64,000 nt of DNA from Hoeflea sp. (GTDB lineage Bacteria; Pseudomonadota; Alphaproteobacteria; Rhizobiales; Rhizobiaceae). Position numbers and translations under genes: made by a program. The notes under the pieces were generated by a model that searched no databases, was not told where the DNA came from, and saw only the letters and a list, made by a program, of their open reading frames with translations. Location of the stretch: the NCBI RefSeq assembly GCF_002733955.1, contig NZ_NVXQ01000009.1, forward strand, positions 1 through 64,000, given 5' to 3'. Position 1 is the first letter of the stretch, and each line of letters starts with the position of its first letter. Positions 45,747 through 52,724 of this stretch are shown in pieces.

Positions 45747-47273
45747 ATGGTGGAATCGGAAGCACAGGGCCGGCTGCCGGGCATACATCCTGTTTCTGTC
45801 ATCGACATTGGTTCCAACTCGGTGCGTCTCGTCATCTACGAGGGGCTCAACCGGGCGCCGTCGGTGCTTTTCAACGAGAAGGTGTTGTGCGGACTGGGCA
45901 AGGGGCTGGTCGCCACCGGAAAGATGGATGAAACCGGCATTGAGCGCGCTCTCGCCGCCTTGAGGCGGTTCCGTGCGCTTTCGGAGCAGGCGCGAGCTTC
46001 GGAGATCCATGTTCTGGCCACGGCGGCTGCCCGCGAAGCCACAAATGGCGCGGCCTTCATCGCGTCTGCAGAAGCGATACTGGGTTGCGACATACGGCTT
46101 CTGACCGGCGAGGAAGAGGCCCGTTTCTCAGCCCTTGGCGTCATCGCCGGCTACCACAAGCCCGATGGTATTGCAGGCGATCTCGGAGGCGGTTCGCTTG
46201 AACTCGTGGATGTCAGGGGGAACGCGTATACCGGTGGGCAAACCCTGCCACTTGGCGGCCTGAGGCTGGCTGAAATGTCGGGAAACTCGATTTCCAGGGC
46301 ACGAACCATCGCCCGGCAAACGCTGAAGAAATCTACAGTTCTGACCGGTGGGGCAGGCCGAACCTTTTACGCGGTCGGCGGCACCTGGCGAAACATCGCC
46401 AAACTGCACATGGAAATCACCGGTTACCCGCTGCACATGATGCAGGCCTACGAAATCGACGCCAAGCCTGCGATCGAATTCCTTGGCGAAGTCGCCGCCA
46501 TGAAGCAATCCAAGATCAATGCCATCAAGGCGATATCGCGCAACCGCCGCGGTCTCTTGCCCTATGGCGCGGTGGCCTTGCAGGAAACGCTGGTCGCGAT
46601 GAAGGCGGAGCGGGTCAGTTTTTCGGCGCTGGGCGTGCGCGAGGGCTATCTCTATTCGCTGCTTGGTGCTGCCGAAGCTGCGCGTGATCCCCTGCTGACG
46701 GCGGCGGGGGAACTTGCGATCCTTCGCGCCCGGTCTCCCGAACATGCCCGCGAACTTGCCGCCTGGACCGGCCGCATGTTCCCGGTCTTCGGCGTCGAGG
46801 AAAGCGAGGAGGATGCCCGCTACCGCCAGGCGGCCTGTCTGCTGGCCGATATTTCCTGGCGTGCGCATCCCGATTACCGCGGCCCGCAGGCGCTCAACAT
46901 CATTGCCCACGGGACATTCACCGGGATCAGCCACGCCGGACGCGCCTATATTGCGCTTGCCAACTATTTCCGCTTCGAAGGCCTCAACGATGATGGGATG
47001 TCTTCGGATCTCGCGGCGATTGCCGGCAAAAAATACCTCGATTACGCCAAGCTGCTCGGGGGCATATTGCGGGTGGTCTATCTTTTCTCCGCCTCGATGC
47101 CGGGAATGGTTCCGCAGCTTGAATTCGTGCCTGCGGTGGCTTCCGACGGCGATGTCGACATCGTGCTCAAGGTGCCGCAATCCTGTGAAGCCTTCGTCGG
47201 CGAGCGGCTTGACGGGCGACTGCAACAGCTGGCCAAGCTGACCGGCAAGAGGCTGGGGTTCCGCGTCGGCTGA
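45747..47273 (+). CDS. ppx: Exopolyphosphatase (Ppx/GppA family)
   Basis: Hydrolyses terminal phosphates of polyphosphate, and may also act on pppGpp. The 508-residue protein has the ASKHA signature VIDIGSNSVRLVIYEG, LATAAAREATN, LTGEEEARFSALGV and DLGGGSLELVDV, followed by an HD-like C-terminal half. It counterbalances the ppk product. The 283 bases between ppk and ppx hold a small hairpin (GCGGG/CCCGC, 45638-45655) and an AT-rich GATATATAA patch at 45662-45670 that could be a -10, so ppx may have its own promoter. Confidence 0.95.
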   Translation: MVESEAQGRLPGIHPVSVIDIGSNSVRLVIYEGLNRAPSVLFNEKVLCGLGKGLVATGKMDETGIERALAALRRFRALSEQARASEIHVLATAAAREATNGAAFIASAEAILGCDIRLLTGEEEARFSALGVIAGYHKPDGIAGDLGGGSLELVDVRGNAYTGGQTLPLGGLRLAEMSGNSISRARTIARQTLKKSTVLTGGAGRTFYAVGGTWRNIAKLHMEITGYPLHMMQAYEIDAKPAIEFLGEVAAMKQSKINAIKAISRNRRGLLPYGAVALQETLVAMKAERVSFSALGVREGYLYSLLGAAEAARDPLLTAAGELAILRARSPEHARELAAWTGRMFPVFGVEESEEDARYRQAACLLADISWRAHPDYRGPQALNIIAHGTFTGISHAGRAYIALANYFRFEGLNDDGMSSDLAAIAGKKYLDYAKLLGGILRVVYLFSASMPGMVPQLEFVPAVASDGDVDIVLKVPQSCEAFVGERLDGRLQQLAKLTGKRLGFRVG

Positions 47274-48704: not shown

Positions 48705-49107
48705 CTTTCCTCAAGCAATACGACCGAATATTTGCTTCTAAGGTATTGAGGATTTGAATAAAATTGTAATCTTTAGCTGTGCAAAGCGAGGATTTCCGCC
48801 ATGTTTGGCGCTCTTTGCGGAACAGAAAAAATAACCAGTGATTGTGTCGATGCGGGAGGATTTTCGCGCGGTTTTGCGCCCTGATTGCCTGGCCTGATCA
48901 ACTTTTCAGGATAGGCACTGACAGCCCGACGATGCCTGCAAGGGTATGGCTGTGGCTCTGCCGGCTATCCATCATGCCTCTCGCACGCTGTGGTGCGGCA
49001 TCACGTTCGAAGCGTCCGCGCGGGAAGCTTCCAGTACAAATCTGGCCCTGTTGCCGGATGGACAGGGCAGGAAATTGTGCGGCGCGCCTTGATCTGAAAA
49101 TCGGGAC
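48705..49107. other. Intergenic region between secreted protein gene and sRNA copy A
   Basis: About 400 bases with no supportable gene. The left part (48705-48790) is AT-rich. The remainder is GC-rich with short open frames on both strands that lack ribosome binding sites. CCCTGT/ACAGGG at 49047-49068 forms a small inverted repeat. I see nothing else that can be supported. Confidence 0.4.
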
Positions 49108-49206
49108 AAAGAAAAAGGCCGGGCGAAATTCGCACCGACCTTCCCGACTTGCCTCAACACACCTGCCAGTACATCCGTGGTCAGGGTGGAGACAAATTTC
49201 TTTGTT
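49108..49206 (-). ncRNA. Probable small RNA, copy A
   Basis: Predicted ~99 nt reverse-strand RNA. It would begin near 49206 with a small ACAAA-GAAA-TTTGT hairpin, continue through a 60-base body differing from copy B at two positions, and end in an intrinsic terminator. The terminator is AAGGTCGGTGCGAA pairing with TTCGCCCGGCCTT, then TTTTT, at 49142-49112. No ribosome binding site with a conserved reading frame is evident. Paralogue at 50765-50859. It may belong to one of the known alphaproteobacterial sRNA families, but I cannot assign which. Confidence 0.72.
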
Positions 49207-49212
49207 GACCCT

Positions 49213-49241
49213 GATATGGTGTCTCAGTTTGCGATTGCAAG
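49213..49241 (-). promoter_or_regulatory. Promoter of sRNA copy A
   Basis: On the reverse strand, -35 CTTGCA (49241-49236), 17-base spacer, -10 CATATC (49218-49213), about seven bases before the predicted start. CTTGCAATCGC is shared with copy B while most of the spacer has diverged, as expected for a functional promoter. Confidence 0.65.
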
Positions 49242-49442
49242 GGAGCCAGCAGGATTTTCTCATCAGATGAGGGGTGGGGGCCTGCAGCAGGAGAACATTT
49301 CGGGCAAGGTTGATTACGTCTTCCCTTTAACCGCCAACATCATGCTAGGATTTCCGTCAGCTCAAAGGGTGGTGTCGTGGCGAGCCGGATGGCAACCTGC
49401 GGGGAAAGACCCGCCGAAACTTTGATTTCAGGAGATGAATGC

Positions 49443-50738
49443 GTGAGCACTGCCAGCCGGTTGAAGAGTTTCCGCAAGCTGCTGGCCCATGCCCGGCAGA
49501 TCCTCGAACTGGATATCGGCTTCAGGCTCTGGGACGGTTCGACGGTCCCCGATGACCTTGACCCCAAGGCCTTCGCCATCCGTTTCTCCGACGAGGGGCT
49601 GGTTGCGGCGCTCCTGCGGGCCCCCAATCCCGAAACCCTGCTCAATCTGTGGGTCGCCAAGCGGATCGATCTGGAAAATGGCGACATGTTCGACCTGGTC
49701 GCGCGGCGGCCGAAAGTGCGCACCCGCGAAATCCGCAAGCAGCTGAGCAAGTTTCTGCTGCTCAACAATGCCCGCAAGTTCCTCTTTGTCGACAGGGGAG
49801 GGCCCTGGCCGCTGAGCGACCAGCCGGACGAGAAACCCTCTGACGGAAACGCCGAGGAAAACCAGAAGAACATCGCCTATCACTATGATGTCTCCAACGC
49901 GTTCTACGAATTGTTTCTCGACGAGCAGATGGTTTACACCTGCGGCTACTGCACCGACTGGGACAATGACATCCACCAGTTGCAGCGCGACAAGCTGGAG
50001 ATGATCTGCCGCAAGCTCCGGCTCAAGTCAGGCGAGACAATGCTCGACATCGGCTTTGGCTGGGGATCGCTGGCGCTCTATGCGGCGGCCAATTACGGCG
50101 TCCACGTCACCGGCGTCACCCTGTCCGAACGGCAGCTTGAATTTGCCACCCGGAAGGCCGAAACACTCGGCCTATCGGACCGGGTCAATTTCATGCTGCT
50201 CGATTATGCCAAGGTGGAGGGCGAGTTCGACAAGATTTCCTCGATCGGCATGCATGAAGCCATCGGCATCGACAATTACCCGACCTATTACTCGACCATT
50301 CACCGGGTGCTCAAGCCAGGCGGGATCTATCTGCACCATGCCATCACGCGGCCTGCCAAGAAGGATGCCAAGACCTTCCGCAAGAAGAACAAGGAGTTCA
50401 AGCTGCTGACCAAATACATCTTTCCGGGCGGCGAACTCGACCACATCGGCAACACCGTGATGAATCTGGAACAGCACGGTTTCGAGGTTCACGACGTGGA
50501 AAACTGGCGCGAGCACTACCAGCGCACCTGCAGGCTCTGGCACGACCGGCTGCTGGCCAATTACGATGCGGCAGTAGCCGAAGTTGGCGAGGTCAAGACA
50601 CGGCTCTGGCTGGTCTATCTCGGCGGCTGCTCGATCGCGTTCGAGCGCAACACCGTCCGGCTCTACCAGACCGTGACAAGCAAGGTGAAGCGCGGTCCCG
50701 CGGGCCTGCCGCCGACGCGCGCTGATTTGTACCGTTAG
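49443..50738 (+). CDS. Cyclopropane-fatty-acyl-phospholipid synthase (copy 2)
   Basis: SAM-dependent lipid methyltransferase of 431 residues. The N-terminal half (FRKLLAHARQILELDIGFRLWDG; LLNNARKFLFVDRGGPWPL) differs from copy 1. The catalytic half has MLDIGFGWGSLALYAA, VTLSERQLEFATRKA, ISSIGMHEAIGIDNYP and a C-terminal YLGGCSIAFERNTVRLYQ. Glu replaces some residues of copy 1, and specificity may differ. The start is GTG 49443, with AGGAG eight bases before; a longer ATG frame begins at 49377. The gene is bracketed by the two sRNA copies, both pointing the other way. Confidence 0.9.
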   Translation: MSTASRLKSFRKLLAHARQILELDIGFRLWDGSTVPDDLDPKAFAIRFSDEGLVAALLRAPNPETLLNLWVAKRIDLENGDMFDLVARRPKVRTREIRKQLSKFLLLNNARKFLFVDRGGPWPLSDQPDEKPSDGNAEENQKNIAYHYDVSNAFYELFLDEQMVYTCGYCTDWDNDIHQLQRDKLEMICRKLRLKSGETMLDIGFGWGSLALYAAANYGVHVTGVTLSERQLEFATRKAETLGLSDRVNFMLLDYAKVEGEFDKISSIGMHEAIGIDNYPTYYSTIHRVLKPGGIYLHHAITRPAKKDAKTFRKKNKEFKLLTKYIFPGGELDHIGNTVMNLEQHGFEVHDVENWREHYQRTCRLWHDRLLANYDAAVAEVGEVKTRLWLVYLGGCSIAFERNTVRLYQTVTSKVKRGPAGLPPTRADLYR

Positions 50739-50764
50739 GCTTCCGGCATCTGGTGTTTGGACAC

Positions 50765-50859
50765 AGAAAAAGGCCGGGCGAAATTCGCACCGACCTTCCT
50801 ATTGCCTCAACACATCTGCCAGTACATCCGTGGTCAGCGTGGAGACAAATTTCTTTGTT
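50765..50859 (-). ncRNA. Probable small RNA, copy B
   Basis: Predicted ~95 nt reverse-strand RNA, paralogous to copy A. The body from TCAACAAAG onward differs from copy A at two of 60 positions plus a two-base deletion before the terminator. The terminator stem and T run (50797-50767) are identical. The copy lies between the 3' ends of cfa copy 2 and a GNAT gene, so it is not a leader of either. Its end is 26 bases from the cfa stop on the opposite strand. Confidence 0.72.
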
Positions 50860-50865
50860 GATCAA

Positions 50866-50894
50866 TACATGCGGTATCCGGGCGCGATTGCAAG
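50866..50894 (-). promoter_or_regulatory. Promoter of sRNA copy B
   Basis: On the reverse strand, -35 CTTGCA (50894-50889), 17-base spacer, -10 CATGTA (50871-50866). The spacing and the CTTGCAATCGC block match copy A exactly. Confidence 0.6.
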
Positions 50895-50957: not shown

Positions 50958-51470
50958 TCAAACGGCAGGCGGAAGATGACGGTAGACAATGTCCTCGGCA
51001 TCCATCCGCGGGGCCGCAGGATCAACCGTTCCGCCGATCCGTTTGGCGACTGCATGCGACTGCAGATTGTCCGGATCCACATAACTCACAAGGGTCTTCA
51101 ATTTGCGTGTGCGCCAGGCCCAGTCGAGCATGCCAGCGGCGGCTTCCGAAGCATAGCCCTTGCCTTCATGCCCTTCATAAAGAAGCCATCCCAGTTCCTT
51201 TTCTGGGAAAAGCGGTCCGTGATTGATGCCCACTTGACCGATGCATGCCTTCGTTGCTTTGAGTTCGATCATAAGCGCACCGTGGCCATAAAAGCTCCAG
51301 CAGGCATGGTCGTGGCAGAACATTCCCCAAGCCGCCCGCTTGTCGTACGGACCGCCCATGCCCGCGGACCGATCGGAAGCAAGAAACATCTCATACTCGG
51401 CGAAATCACCCAGACTTTGCGGCCTCAACGTCAGCCGTTCGGTGTTGAAGGTTACAATCCCCTCGTACAT
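50958..51470 (-). CDS. GNAT family N-acetyltransferase
   Basis: 170-residue acetyl-CoA-dependent transferase of the RimJ/RimL-type group. It starts MYEGIVTFNTERLTLRPQSLGDFAEYEMF, has CIGQVGINHG, LGWLLYEGHEGKGYASEAAAGMLDWAW as the acetyl-CoA loop, and VDPDNLQSHAVAKRIGG near the C-terminus. Substrate unknown. ATG 51470 has AGAGGA five bases upstream. It ends just before the promoter of sRNA copy B. Confidence 0.9.
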   Translation of the reverse strand: MYEGIVTFNTERLTLRPQSLGDFAEYEMFLASDRSAGMGGPYDKRAAWGMFCHDHACWSFYGHGALMIELKATKACIGQVGINHGPLFPEKELGWLLYEGHEGKGYASEAAAGMLDWAWRTRKLKTLVSYVDPDNLQSHAVAKRIGGTVDPAAPRMDAEDIVYRHLPPAV

Positions 51471-51563
51471 ACTGGTCCTCTCTCGAAATGTGAGAGTGCT
51501 TACCATGCCGCGATGACGGATTTGTGTGCTGTTGGGCAGGAGCCCAGACTGCCGAGAATTCGA

Positions 51564-52724
51564 CTAAAGCTCGACCGCTTCGACCCGCTTGTTGGCGAAA
51601 CGCAGCGCCAGTTCGCCGCGAATGAGCTTGAGTGCACGCTCGCCGAACAGCTCGCGGCGCCAGCCCTGAAGCGCCGCCACATCGGCTTCATCGCCATCCA
51701 CAGCAATGGCTTCAAGATCATCGGCATTGGCGATGATCTTGGCGGCGACGTTTTCCTTCTCGACCGTCAGCTTGAGCAGCACCCGCAACAGCTCGATCGA
51801 AGCCTGCGCGCCTTCGGGCGTCTGCTTCTGCCGTGGCAGCCGCGGCATCTTTTCCTTCGGCGTCTCGAGCGCCTCGTTGACGATTTCCACCAGCGTGGCG
51901 CCCTGCTGCGAACGCTCCCAGCCGCGCGGGATCGTCCTGAGCCGCGACAGCGCTTCTGAATCCTTGGGCTGCTGCTGAGCGATCTCATAGATCGCGTCGT
52001 CCTTGATCACCCGGCCGCGCGGCACGTTGCGCGATTTGGCCTCGCGTTCGCGCCAGGCAGCGACATGCTGCAGCACGCACAGCTCAACCGGCTTCTTGAC
52101 CCGCATCTTCAGCCGCTTCCAGGCGTCTTCCGGGTTGATCTCGTAGGTCGAGCGCGATTCCAGCACCGCCATCTCGTCGGCCACCCAGAGGCTGCGGCCT
52201 TCGGCATTCAGCCGATCAACCAGTTCGAGATAGACGTCGCGCAGGTGGGTCACATCGGCGAGCGCGTAATCAAGCTGCTTGTCGGTCAGGGGCCGGCGGC
52301 TCCAGTCGGTGAACCGGGACGACTTGTCGATATGCGCTCCGGTAATCCGCGAGACCAGTTGATCGTAGGAAATCGATTCGCCGAAACCGCACACCATGGC
52401 CGCCACCTGGGTGTCGAAAAGCGGGTGCGGCACCAGGTCCCCGAGCTTGACCACGATCTCGATGTCCTGCCGTGCGGCATGAAACACCTTGATCACCGAA
52501 GTGTCGGCCATCAGCTCGAAAAAGGGTTTCAGATCAATGCCTTTGGCCAGGGGATCGACAATTCCTTCATCCTCGGGACCTGCCATCTGAATGAGGCAGA
52601 GCTCGGGCCAGTAAGTGGTCTCACGCAGGAACTCGGTGTCAACGGTGACATAGTCGTGTTTGGCGAGGCGGGCGCAAAAGGCGGCAAGCGCCTCGGTCGT
52701 TGTAATCATGTCCATGCTTGGCAT
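51564..52724 (-). CDS. rnd: Ribonuclease D
   Basis: 3'-5' exoribonuclease of tRNA and stable RNA maturation. The 386-residue protein has the DEDD catalytic set: Asp/Glu in VTVDTEFLRETTYWP, Asp in KVFHAARQDIEIV, and Asp with Tyr in LDYALADVTHL. An HRDC helical domain follows (REREAKSRNVPRGRVIKDDAI), then an extended C-terminus. The start ATG 52724 immediately follows the TAA of the MFS gene; ATG 52715 is an alternative. The two are likely co-transcribed. Confidence 0.95.
   Translation of the reverse strand: MPSMDMITTTEALAAFCARLAKHDYVTVDTEFLRETTYWPELCLIQMAGPEDEGIVDPLAKGIDLKPFFELMADTSVIKVFHAARQDIEIVVKLGDLVPHPLFDTQVAAMVCGFGESISYDQLVSRITGAHIDKSSRFTDWSRRPLTDKQLDYALADVTHLRDVYLELVDRLNAEGRSLWVADEMAVLESRSTYEINPEDAWKRLKMRVKKPVELCVLQHVAAWREREAKSRNVPRGRVIKDDAIYEIAQQQPKDSEALSRLRTIPRGWERSQQGATLVEIVNEALETPKEKMPRLPRQKQTPEGAQASIELLRVLLKLTVEKENVAAKIIANADDLEAIAVDGDEADVAALQGWRRELFGERALKLIRGELALRFANKRVEAVEL

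Follow-up and report, generated by a model that had tools for sequence, protein, structure and literature searches.

Two short hairpin RNA genes in Hoeflea resemble the SmelB053/SmrB35 family and may serve as decoys for an RNA-binding factor

The stretch of Hoeflea sp. DNA analysed here (contig NZ_NVXQ01000009.1, positions 1 to 64,000; the whole 64,000-nucleotide (nt) stretch is called the window below) carries two closely similar small RNA (sRNA) units, copy 1 and copy 2, on its minus strand. Judged from sequence, both look like a short form, lacking the first stem-loop, of the published SmelB053/SmrB35 family. The stem of their central hairpin covaries among relatives and its loop is nearly fixed. 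With modest confidence, we favour the reading that the units act as decoys, offering this hairpin to an RNA-binding factor. The family and its likeness to the 3' untranslated regions (3'UTRs) of cold-shock (csp) genes are the published part of this account; what is added here, by sequence comparison, is the stem covariation around the nearly fixed loop, the counts of hairpins close to csp stop codons, the finding that the loop 11-mer has no antisense site in the genome, the ppx-rnd setting of the unit in this genus, the apparently exchanged gene next to copy 2, the lack of the hairpin at this genome's csp genes, and a second hairpin form that usually has a CtrA-like box.

Two units with promoter-like sites and terminators

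An earlier note on this DNA, made from its letters, had described two sRNA genes, each with promoter and terminator, on either side of a cyclopropane synthase gene (cfa). Its description of the two units and their flanking position was right in all that matters. The elements of the units, all on the minus strand, are as follows.

49236..49241, minus strand: copy 1 -35 element, CTTGCA, placed by sequence
49214..49219, minus strand: copy 1 -10 element, CCATAT, 16 nt from the -35, sigma70- or RpoH-like
49108..49208, minus strand: copy 1 predicted sRNA, its start (about 49207-49209) placed from the promoter
49164..49183, minus strand: copy 1 core hairpin, UGACCACGGAUGUACUGGCA, with loop CGGAUGUAC at 49169-49177
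49112..49142, minus strand: copy 1 rho-independent terminator, predicted from folding and sequence
50889..50894, minus strand: copy 2 -35 element, CTTGCA, placed by sequence
50867..50872, minus strand: copy 2 -10 position, GCATGT, 16 nt from the -35, weaker than the copy 1 -10
50765..50862, minus strand: copy 2 predicted sRNA, its putative start at about 50860-50862
50817..50836, minus strand: copy 2 core hairpin, with loop at 50822-50830
50767..50797, minus strand: copy 2 predicted rho-independent terminator, about 29 nt past the stop codon of cfa, with which it converges

The -35 block common to both copies, CTTGCAATCGC, is identical, and CTTGCA stands upstream in 15 of 15 units of the genus aligned on it. 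The spacing between -35 and -10 is equal in the two copies, as the note had it: 16 nt with the hexamers set here, 17 with the other boundary. Their 60-nt bodies (TCAACAAAG..GAGGCAA) differ by two substitutions, and the terminator region, claimed to be identical over 31 bases, is identical over 35 nt. Most of the spacer between -35 and -10 differs between the copies, as do the bases between -10 and start. In copy 1, CTTGCA-N16-CCATAT is intermediate between two R. etli consensuses, the RpoH-like one and that of SigA (PMC4167512).

We infer that both units are transcribed from the minus strand as RNAs of about 100 nt, consisting of a short leader, an extended hairpin and a terminator. Pieces of this leader (CAACA.., AUUUG) turn up repeatedly among 15 units of the genus. 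The copy 1 RNA (49106-49209) folded at -47.1 kcal/mol (z -5.17) and the copy 2 RNA (50764-50862) at -38.2 kcal/mol (z -4.03), and in neither case did any of 200 shuffled sequences fold as well. Each unit contains one hairpin with the CACGGAUG loop.

A short form of the SmelB053/SmrB35 family

The Rfam check that the earlier note had proposed, run with cmscan on the whole window, supported its view that the units have the appearance of sRNA genes. Two matches reached the gathering threshold, both to RF02346 (ar35), with 51 bits for copy 1 and 48 bits for copy 2 against a cut-off of 45. Both alignments rest on the second hairpin and the terminator. Given the predicted start sites, the first stem-loop of ar35 (full length about 139-144 nt) is missing in both units. 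In copy 1 the corresponding part of the model covers promoter DNA, in copy 2 the short leader. A literature search under the name ar35 found no relevant paper; publications call the family SmelB053/smrB35. In the wide sense of PMC3927594, the first stem-loop of the SmelB053 family varies or is absent, the second has the loop GGAUGUA and the third is a terminator; both window units show this arrangement.

The likeness of the family to the 3'UTRs of cold-shock genes was already described in 2011. PMC3927594 reports 33 similar 3'UTRs, 29 of them from cold-shock genes, and its authors suggest that the sRNAs are interceptor transcripts. A table in PMC7143759 equates SmelB053 with smrB35 and gives three copies with promoter classes RpoD and RpoH1/2. 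SmrB35 is 139 nt long, is stimulated about 4-fold by luteolin and was undetected in nodules (PMC2780559); it gave no co-immunoprecipitation signal with Hfq, a result its authors took to mean that binding is absent or very weak (PMC2848018).

Like SmelB053/SmrB35 (S. meliloti pSymB 577730-577873), the window units combine a GGAUGUA second stem-loop with a terminator in a standalone gene, and copy 1 matches pSymB 577793-577874 over 49% of the query at 80.7% identity. Unlike the 139-nt SmrB35 of S. meliloti, they have a predicted length of about 100 nt, no first stem-loop and another genomic place. By description alone, they may also be likened to the short form SmelC691 (S. meliloti chromosome, 83 nt; PMC2873474, PMC3927594).

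Among 151 genomes of the family Rhizobiaceae, ar35 matches at E <= 0.001 occurred in 107 and exceeded the cut-off in 68; among the matches listed, scores ran from 146 down to about 41 bits, many of them between 45 and 65. Several of the lower-scoring units (L026-L031, 61-66 bits) follow a csp-like C-terminus, as judged by eye, and the csp-linked unit of L064 scores 52.4 bits. Since csp-linked units thus score above 45 bits, passing the Rfam cut-off alone does not make a unit a full ar35, and RF02346 annotations near that cut-off mix csp-linked hairpins and short forms with ar35.

The stem covaries and the loop is nearly fixed

The hairpin core is U1-G2-A3-C4-C5-A6-[C7..C15]-U16-G17-G18-C19-A20 with A3 bulged, so that its tip reads UG-A-CCA-[CGGAUGUAC]-UGGCA. 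A search of 101 genomes of the family for this core, with up to three mismatches anywhere, returned 234 matches in 79 genomes, against 15 for the reversed control. The counts of stem and loop changes that follow come from 70 variant rows (37 distinct strings) among the matches listed.

Of 41 double changes at stem pairs, 40 keep standard pairing; over distinct strings, the figure is 11 of 12. By position, pairing is kept in 29 of 29 double changes at pair 1-20, 7 of 7 at 6-16, 3 of 4 at 4-18 and the single one at 5-17, while pair 2-19 shows three single changes and no double change. When one side of the stem was dealt anew, at most 21 paired double changes arose at 1-20 and 6 at 6-16. The loop positions G8, G9, A10 or G12 were altered in only 5 of the 70 rows. 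U13 was altered in 17, which makes a kissing-loop dimer through GUAC unlikely. Sequence outside the core pairs as well: over 155 units less than 85% alike, the mean duplex energy was -16.96 with a unit's own partner and -11.57 (standard deviation 0.19) with shuffled partners, a control that leaves relatedness in.

The core also contains AUG-UAC-UGG, preceded by GG and followed six codons on by a stop in both copies, and could be taken for the start of a small open reading frame (ORF). We give this explanation practically no credence. Changes follow base pairs, the sequence after the core differs between units, and in the second hairpin type described below a stem-compensating change gives AUG-UAC-UGC, which turns the Trp codon into Cys yet keeps the pair. 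Because this form arises by a compensating change, it is the nucleotides and not the codons that are conserved, in line with the earlier statement that no conserved reading frame is apparent.

The hairpin behind csp genes

To describe where the hairpin sits, we used a named collection of 119 loci with an exact core, comprising 122 units, in which csp neighbours were called by profile search. The hairpin lies within 142 nt of a csp stop codon in 76 of the 122 units, and within 36 nt in 65 of these. A csp gene was found within 1.5 kb upstream of 80 units (the csp class) and not of 38; the remaining 4 lie within 250 nt of the end of their locus and were not judged. The 76 leave out four csp-class units whose distance from the stop is 242-334 nt. 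In the wider class, the exact 17-mer was present in 9 of 385 genomes, our own and 8 of the 384 others, and in all 8 it stands behind a csp-like C-terminus (by eye); exact matching understates the spread of the hairpin among these genomes.

The window units resemble the csp 3'UTR hairpins of Rhizobiales (SmelC521 and others; PMC3927594) in having the same hairpin followed by a terminator. Unlike those hairpins, which are parts of csp mRNAs, they stand alone: none of the four CSD matches of their genome lies on the window's contig, and the units do not qualify as csp 3'UTRs. The csp genes of this genome differ in turn from those of many relatives, which carry the hairpin.

Two other arrangements were also seen. 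In L083, L129 and L229, two tandem hairpins lie about 70-85 nt apart behind one csp-like gene. In L053, L077 and L151, the hairpin lies about 95 nt ahead of the ATG of a similar ORF (88 amino acids in L077 and L151), possibly in a 5'-leader context; in L053 a longer in-frame start of that ORF would overlap the hairpin.

A second hairpin type and a CtrA-like box

A survey of the genus found 34 matches, with at least one in each of the 18 genomes. Exact cores of the window kind (type A) account for 15 and occur in 14 genomes; the other 19 belong to a second type, which all 18 carry. This second type is a compensatory form, fused with the terminator that follows it; its sequence is TGAGCACGGATGTACTGCCA in every genome of the genus but G157, which has TGTGCACGGATGTACTGCCA. 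The own genome's copy of this type lies outside the window (G000:C39:201881-201900, L035), has a C-G to G-C change, and is preceded by TTAA-N7-TTAAC.

Upstream of the second type, the box TTAA-N7-TTAA was present in 15 of the 16 loci examined (of 19), starting 75-99 nt before the core; upstream of type A units it was found in none of 15. Across the 119 loci of the collection, 9 of 39 units outside the csp class had a box within 160 nt upstream, as did 3 of 80 within it and 21 of 4760 random windows. All three box-bearing csp-class units belong to the four that are distant from the stop, and with their own CtrA-like box they are probably separate genes. When the family was searched for a box lying 40-70 nt ahead of CACGGATG, hits came from 39 of 297 genomes and 18 of 109 genera, against 1 for the reversed control; among 30 of these loci that were read, the full hairpin was present in 21 and a near variant in 3, and the other 6 had no hairpin. 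Examples of box-preceded standalone units are L264, L266-L269, L283 and L284.

Verified CtrA sites of S. meliloti have the consensus TAA-N7-TTAAC (PMC3616915), and CtrA may bind at the boxes found here. A directed literature search, and PMC3616915 with its CtrA scan of regions upstream of ORFs, gave no report of this form of the hairpin, which is weak evidence.

A repeat element without regulatory role, whether REP-like or a mobile terminator cassette, would account for the scattered copies, up to eight core matches (at three mismatches or fewer) in one genome, and for a possible exchange of copy 2 together with a neighbouring gene (see below). The ordered placement behind csp genes, near ppx or rnd and behind CtrA-like boxes, together with the compensatory changes in the stem, makes such an element a highly improbable explanation.

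A decoy for an RNA-binding factor

In the reading that we favour, each unit would be transcribed from its own sigma70/RpoH-like promoter, and its hairpin would be offered to a factor (a protein or a degradation complex) whose targets in other Alphaproteobacteria would be the 3' ends of csp mRNAs. The amount of decoy RNA would then set how much of the factor stays free, and cfa would stand outside the mechanism.

Recognition by a protein seems a better account than pairing because the loop is kept while the stem varies, because no complementarity to it was detected in csp mRNAs, and because no 11-nt antisense site was found. A search of both strands of the own genome found the loop 11-mer, CACGGATGTAC, in the three hairpins and nowhere else. 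Over the 18 genus genomes it has 45 sites, of which 34 are hairpins; the other 11 compare with 13 for a reversed-pattern control, and we therefore rejected long antisense targets. Loop complements of 6-8 nt were not enriched in 65 csp mRNA regions, where none passed the threshold of at least 6 observed and more than 4 standard deviations over shuffles, and pairing of the loop with csp mRNAs was rejected likewise. The missing Hfq signal of SmrB35 (PMC2848018) agrees with protein recognition.

The principal alternative is that the units are base-pairing sRNAs acting in trans, with the exposed GGAUGUA loop or the A-rich leader as an mRNA seed. The hardly changing loop, the standalone units with promoter-like sites and terminator, and the recurring leader parts all count in its favour; the target searches just described, the frequent alteration of U13 and the SmrB35 result with Hfq count against it. 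We regard it as a real possibility that falls well short of probable, with short seeds as a possible mode of pairing. The earlier note had called the units trans-acting. In the antisense sense, the tests made gave this no support, and a role as protein decoy, itself a proposal drawn from sequence, would fit better.

A protein that reads such loops elsewhere is CsrA. Its site consensus is given as (A/U)CANGGANG(U/A) and RUACARGGAUGU (PMC6692469), the loop CCACGGAUGUA fits the former except at the first base, and RsmE binds an ACGGAU loop in hcnA (PMC4005645). A sponge for CsrA of the Csr/Rsm type nevertheless has next to no chance of being the explanation. CsrA (PF02599) was found in 1 of 151 genomes of the family and not in our own, whose assembly completeness is listed as 100, and we rejected the sponge on this ground; the search was positive in the controls E. 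coli, B. subtilis and Thermotoga. Among the 8 other genomes of the class with the motif, 1 has CsrA. In RsmZ SL1, RsmE bound about 10-fold more weakly when extra bases separated ACGGAU from the stem, as they do here (PMC4005645). By description, the units share with CsrB/RsmZ-type protein-sequestering RNAs a CsrA-like GGA loop in a hairpin and a proposed decoy role, and differ from them in that no CsrA was found in the genome and each RNA has a single GGA hairpin.

Several points weigh against a decoy. The own genome's csp genes (four CSD matches at three loci, L179-L182) have no hairpin in their 3' regions, and of the 31 genus matches (among 34) whose upstream flank was seen, none follows a csp-like stop (by eye). 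Together these mean that a simple model in which the RNA protects csp mRNA fails in the genus, and the first means that the published shielding of csp mRNAs by sRNAs cannot hold here unchanged. We know of no binding factor for the hairpin. Known sponges carry several sites, and the window RNAs have one hairpin each. A fixed loop is equally expected from a shared antisense seed, and transcription of the units is itself predicted from promoter-like and terminator sequences. The covariation has its own weak places: shuffles reach the observed value (3) at pair 4-18; one-sided stem changes are common, with 31 over the five pairs, of which 9 stay G-U; and the 15 matches of the reversed control make it probable that chance accounts for part of the 27 rows with three mismatches. 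Exact-match searches are biased towards an invariant core, and only the 18-genome genus survey and the 101-genome search with up to three mismatches are free of this bias.

More speculatively, and with a good deal less confidence than we have in the decoy itself, we suggest that many CsrA-free Alphaproteobacteria possess a Csr-like circuit. A protein would read the CACGGAUG(N)AC loop on a free stem, csp mRNA 3' ends would be among its clients, and standalone decoys under sigma70/RpoH-like or CtrA-box promoters would tie the free protein to stress and cell cycle. That the csp sites are gone in the window's genus and only decoys remain would point to further clients. A literature search for a CsrA-like reader in Alphaproteobacteria found none.

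As genes, the window units are unremarkable additions to a published family. Any wider interest would lie in the element they carry, a hairpin with a variable stem and a nearly fixed loop. It occurs behind csp genes and also alone, in no fewer than three forms: the full ar35, the CtrA-box form and the short one seen in the window. To our knowledge, no reader of the hairpin is known in the clade, and the csp-free standalone units of this genus would offer a clean bait for finding one.

Synteny, cfa and the origin of copy 2

Gene names in this work other than csp and CsrA were given by inspection or come from the earlier note. The genes around the two units are the following.

45747..47273, plus strand: ppx-like ORF, left border of the syntenic interval (name by inspection)
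49377..50738, plus strand: cyclopropane synthase (cfa) ORF; later starts are possible and 49443 was used (name from the earlier note)
50958..51506, minus strand: acetyltransferase-like gene, adjoining copy 2 (name by inspection)
51564..52724, minus strand: ribonuclease D-like (rnd) ORF, right border of the syntenic interval (name by inspection)

The exact 20-nt core, present in 14 of the 18 genomes of the genus, lies near ppx or rnd in each. The type A unit stands between ppx and rnd in 7 of the 14, our own included, and near one end of the interval in the other 7. In six type A genomes, 1.5 kb to either side of the unit was read, which showed ppx in two and rnd in four. In G164, the unit lies on the ppx side, beside a window gene and a ppx fragment, and rnd is at the other end. 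At E <= 1e-60, 8 of the 14 type A genomes have a close cfa and 6 lack one; in G157 the gene is on another contig than the unit, and G163, G165 and the incomplete G155 have cfa without an exact unit. Judged by synteny, the unit's place is the ppx-rnd neighbourhood, with cfa coming and going as a neighbour. Since the unit is kept without cfa and cfa without an exact unit, cfa is probably a bystander, and we rejected a functional link between it and the units. The position on either side of cfa, as first described, is incidental.

The same distribution bears on a local role in cis, with copy 2 antisense to the cfa 3' end or sharing its terminator and copy 1 as a divergent regulator. The closeness of the convergent copy 2 terminator to the cfa stop would suit this role; the six carriers without a close cfa, and the three genomes with cfa and no exact unit, leave it very unlikely.

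That the units are duplicated, as the earlier note put it, may be wrong. The acetyltransferase-like gene beside copy 2 is 95.8% identical at the nucleotide level to its counterpart in G151, against 75-81% for the ppx, cfa and rnd genes of that genome. The comparison took in 17 loci, 16 from the genus and one from another genus, and six of the 17 were no longer than 2-3 kb; among them G151 alone has this gene, and its sole type A unit stands in the copy 2 position. The gene has apparently been exchanged recently. Copy 2 may have come along with it or may have arisen by duplication. In 60-nt steps, identity to G151 was 0.93-0.98 over most of the acetyltransferase-like gene and 0.78-0.92 over the unit; given this lower identity, the unit itself is not clearly within the exchanged block.

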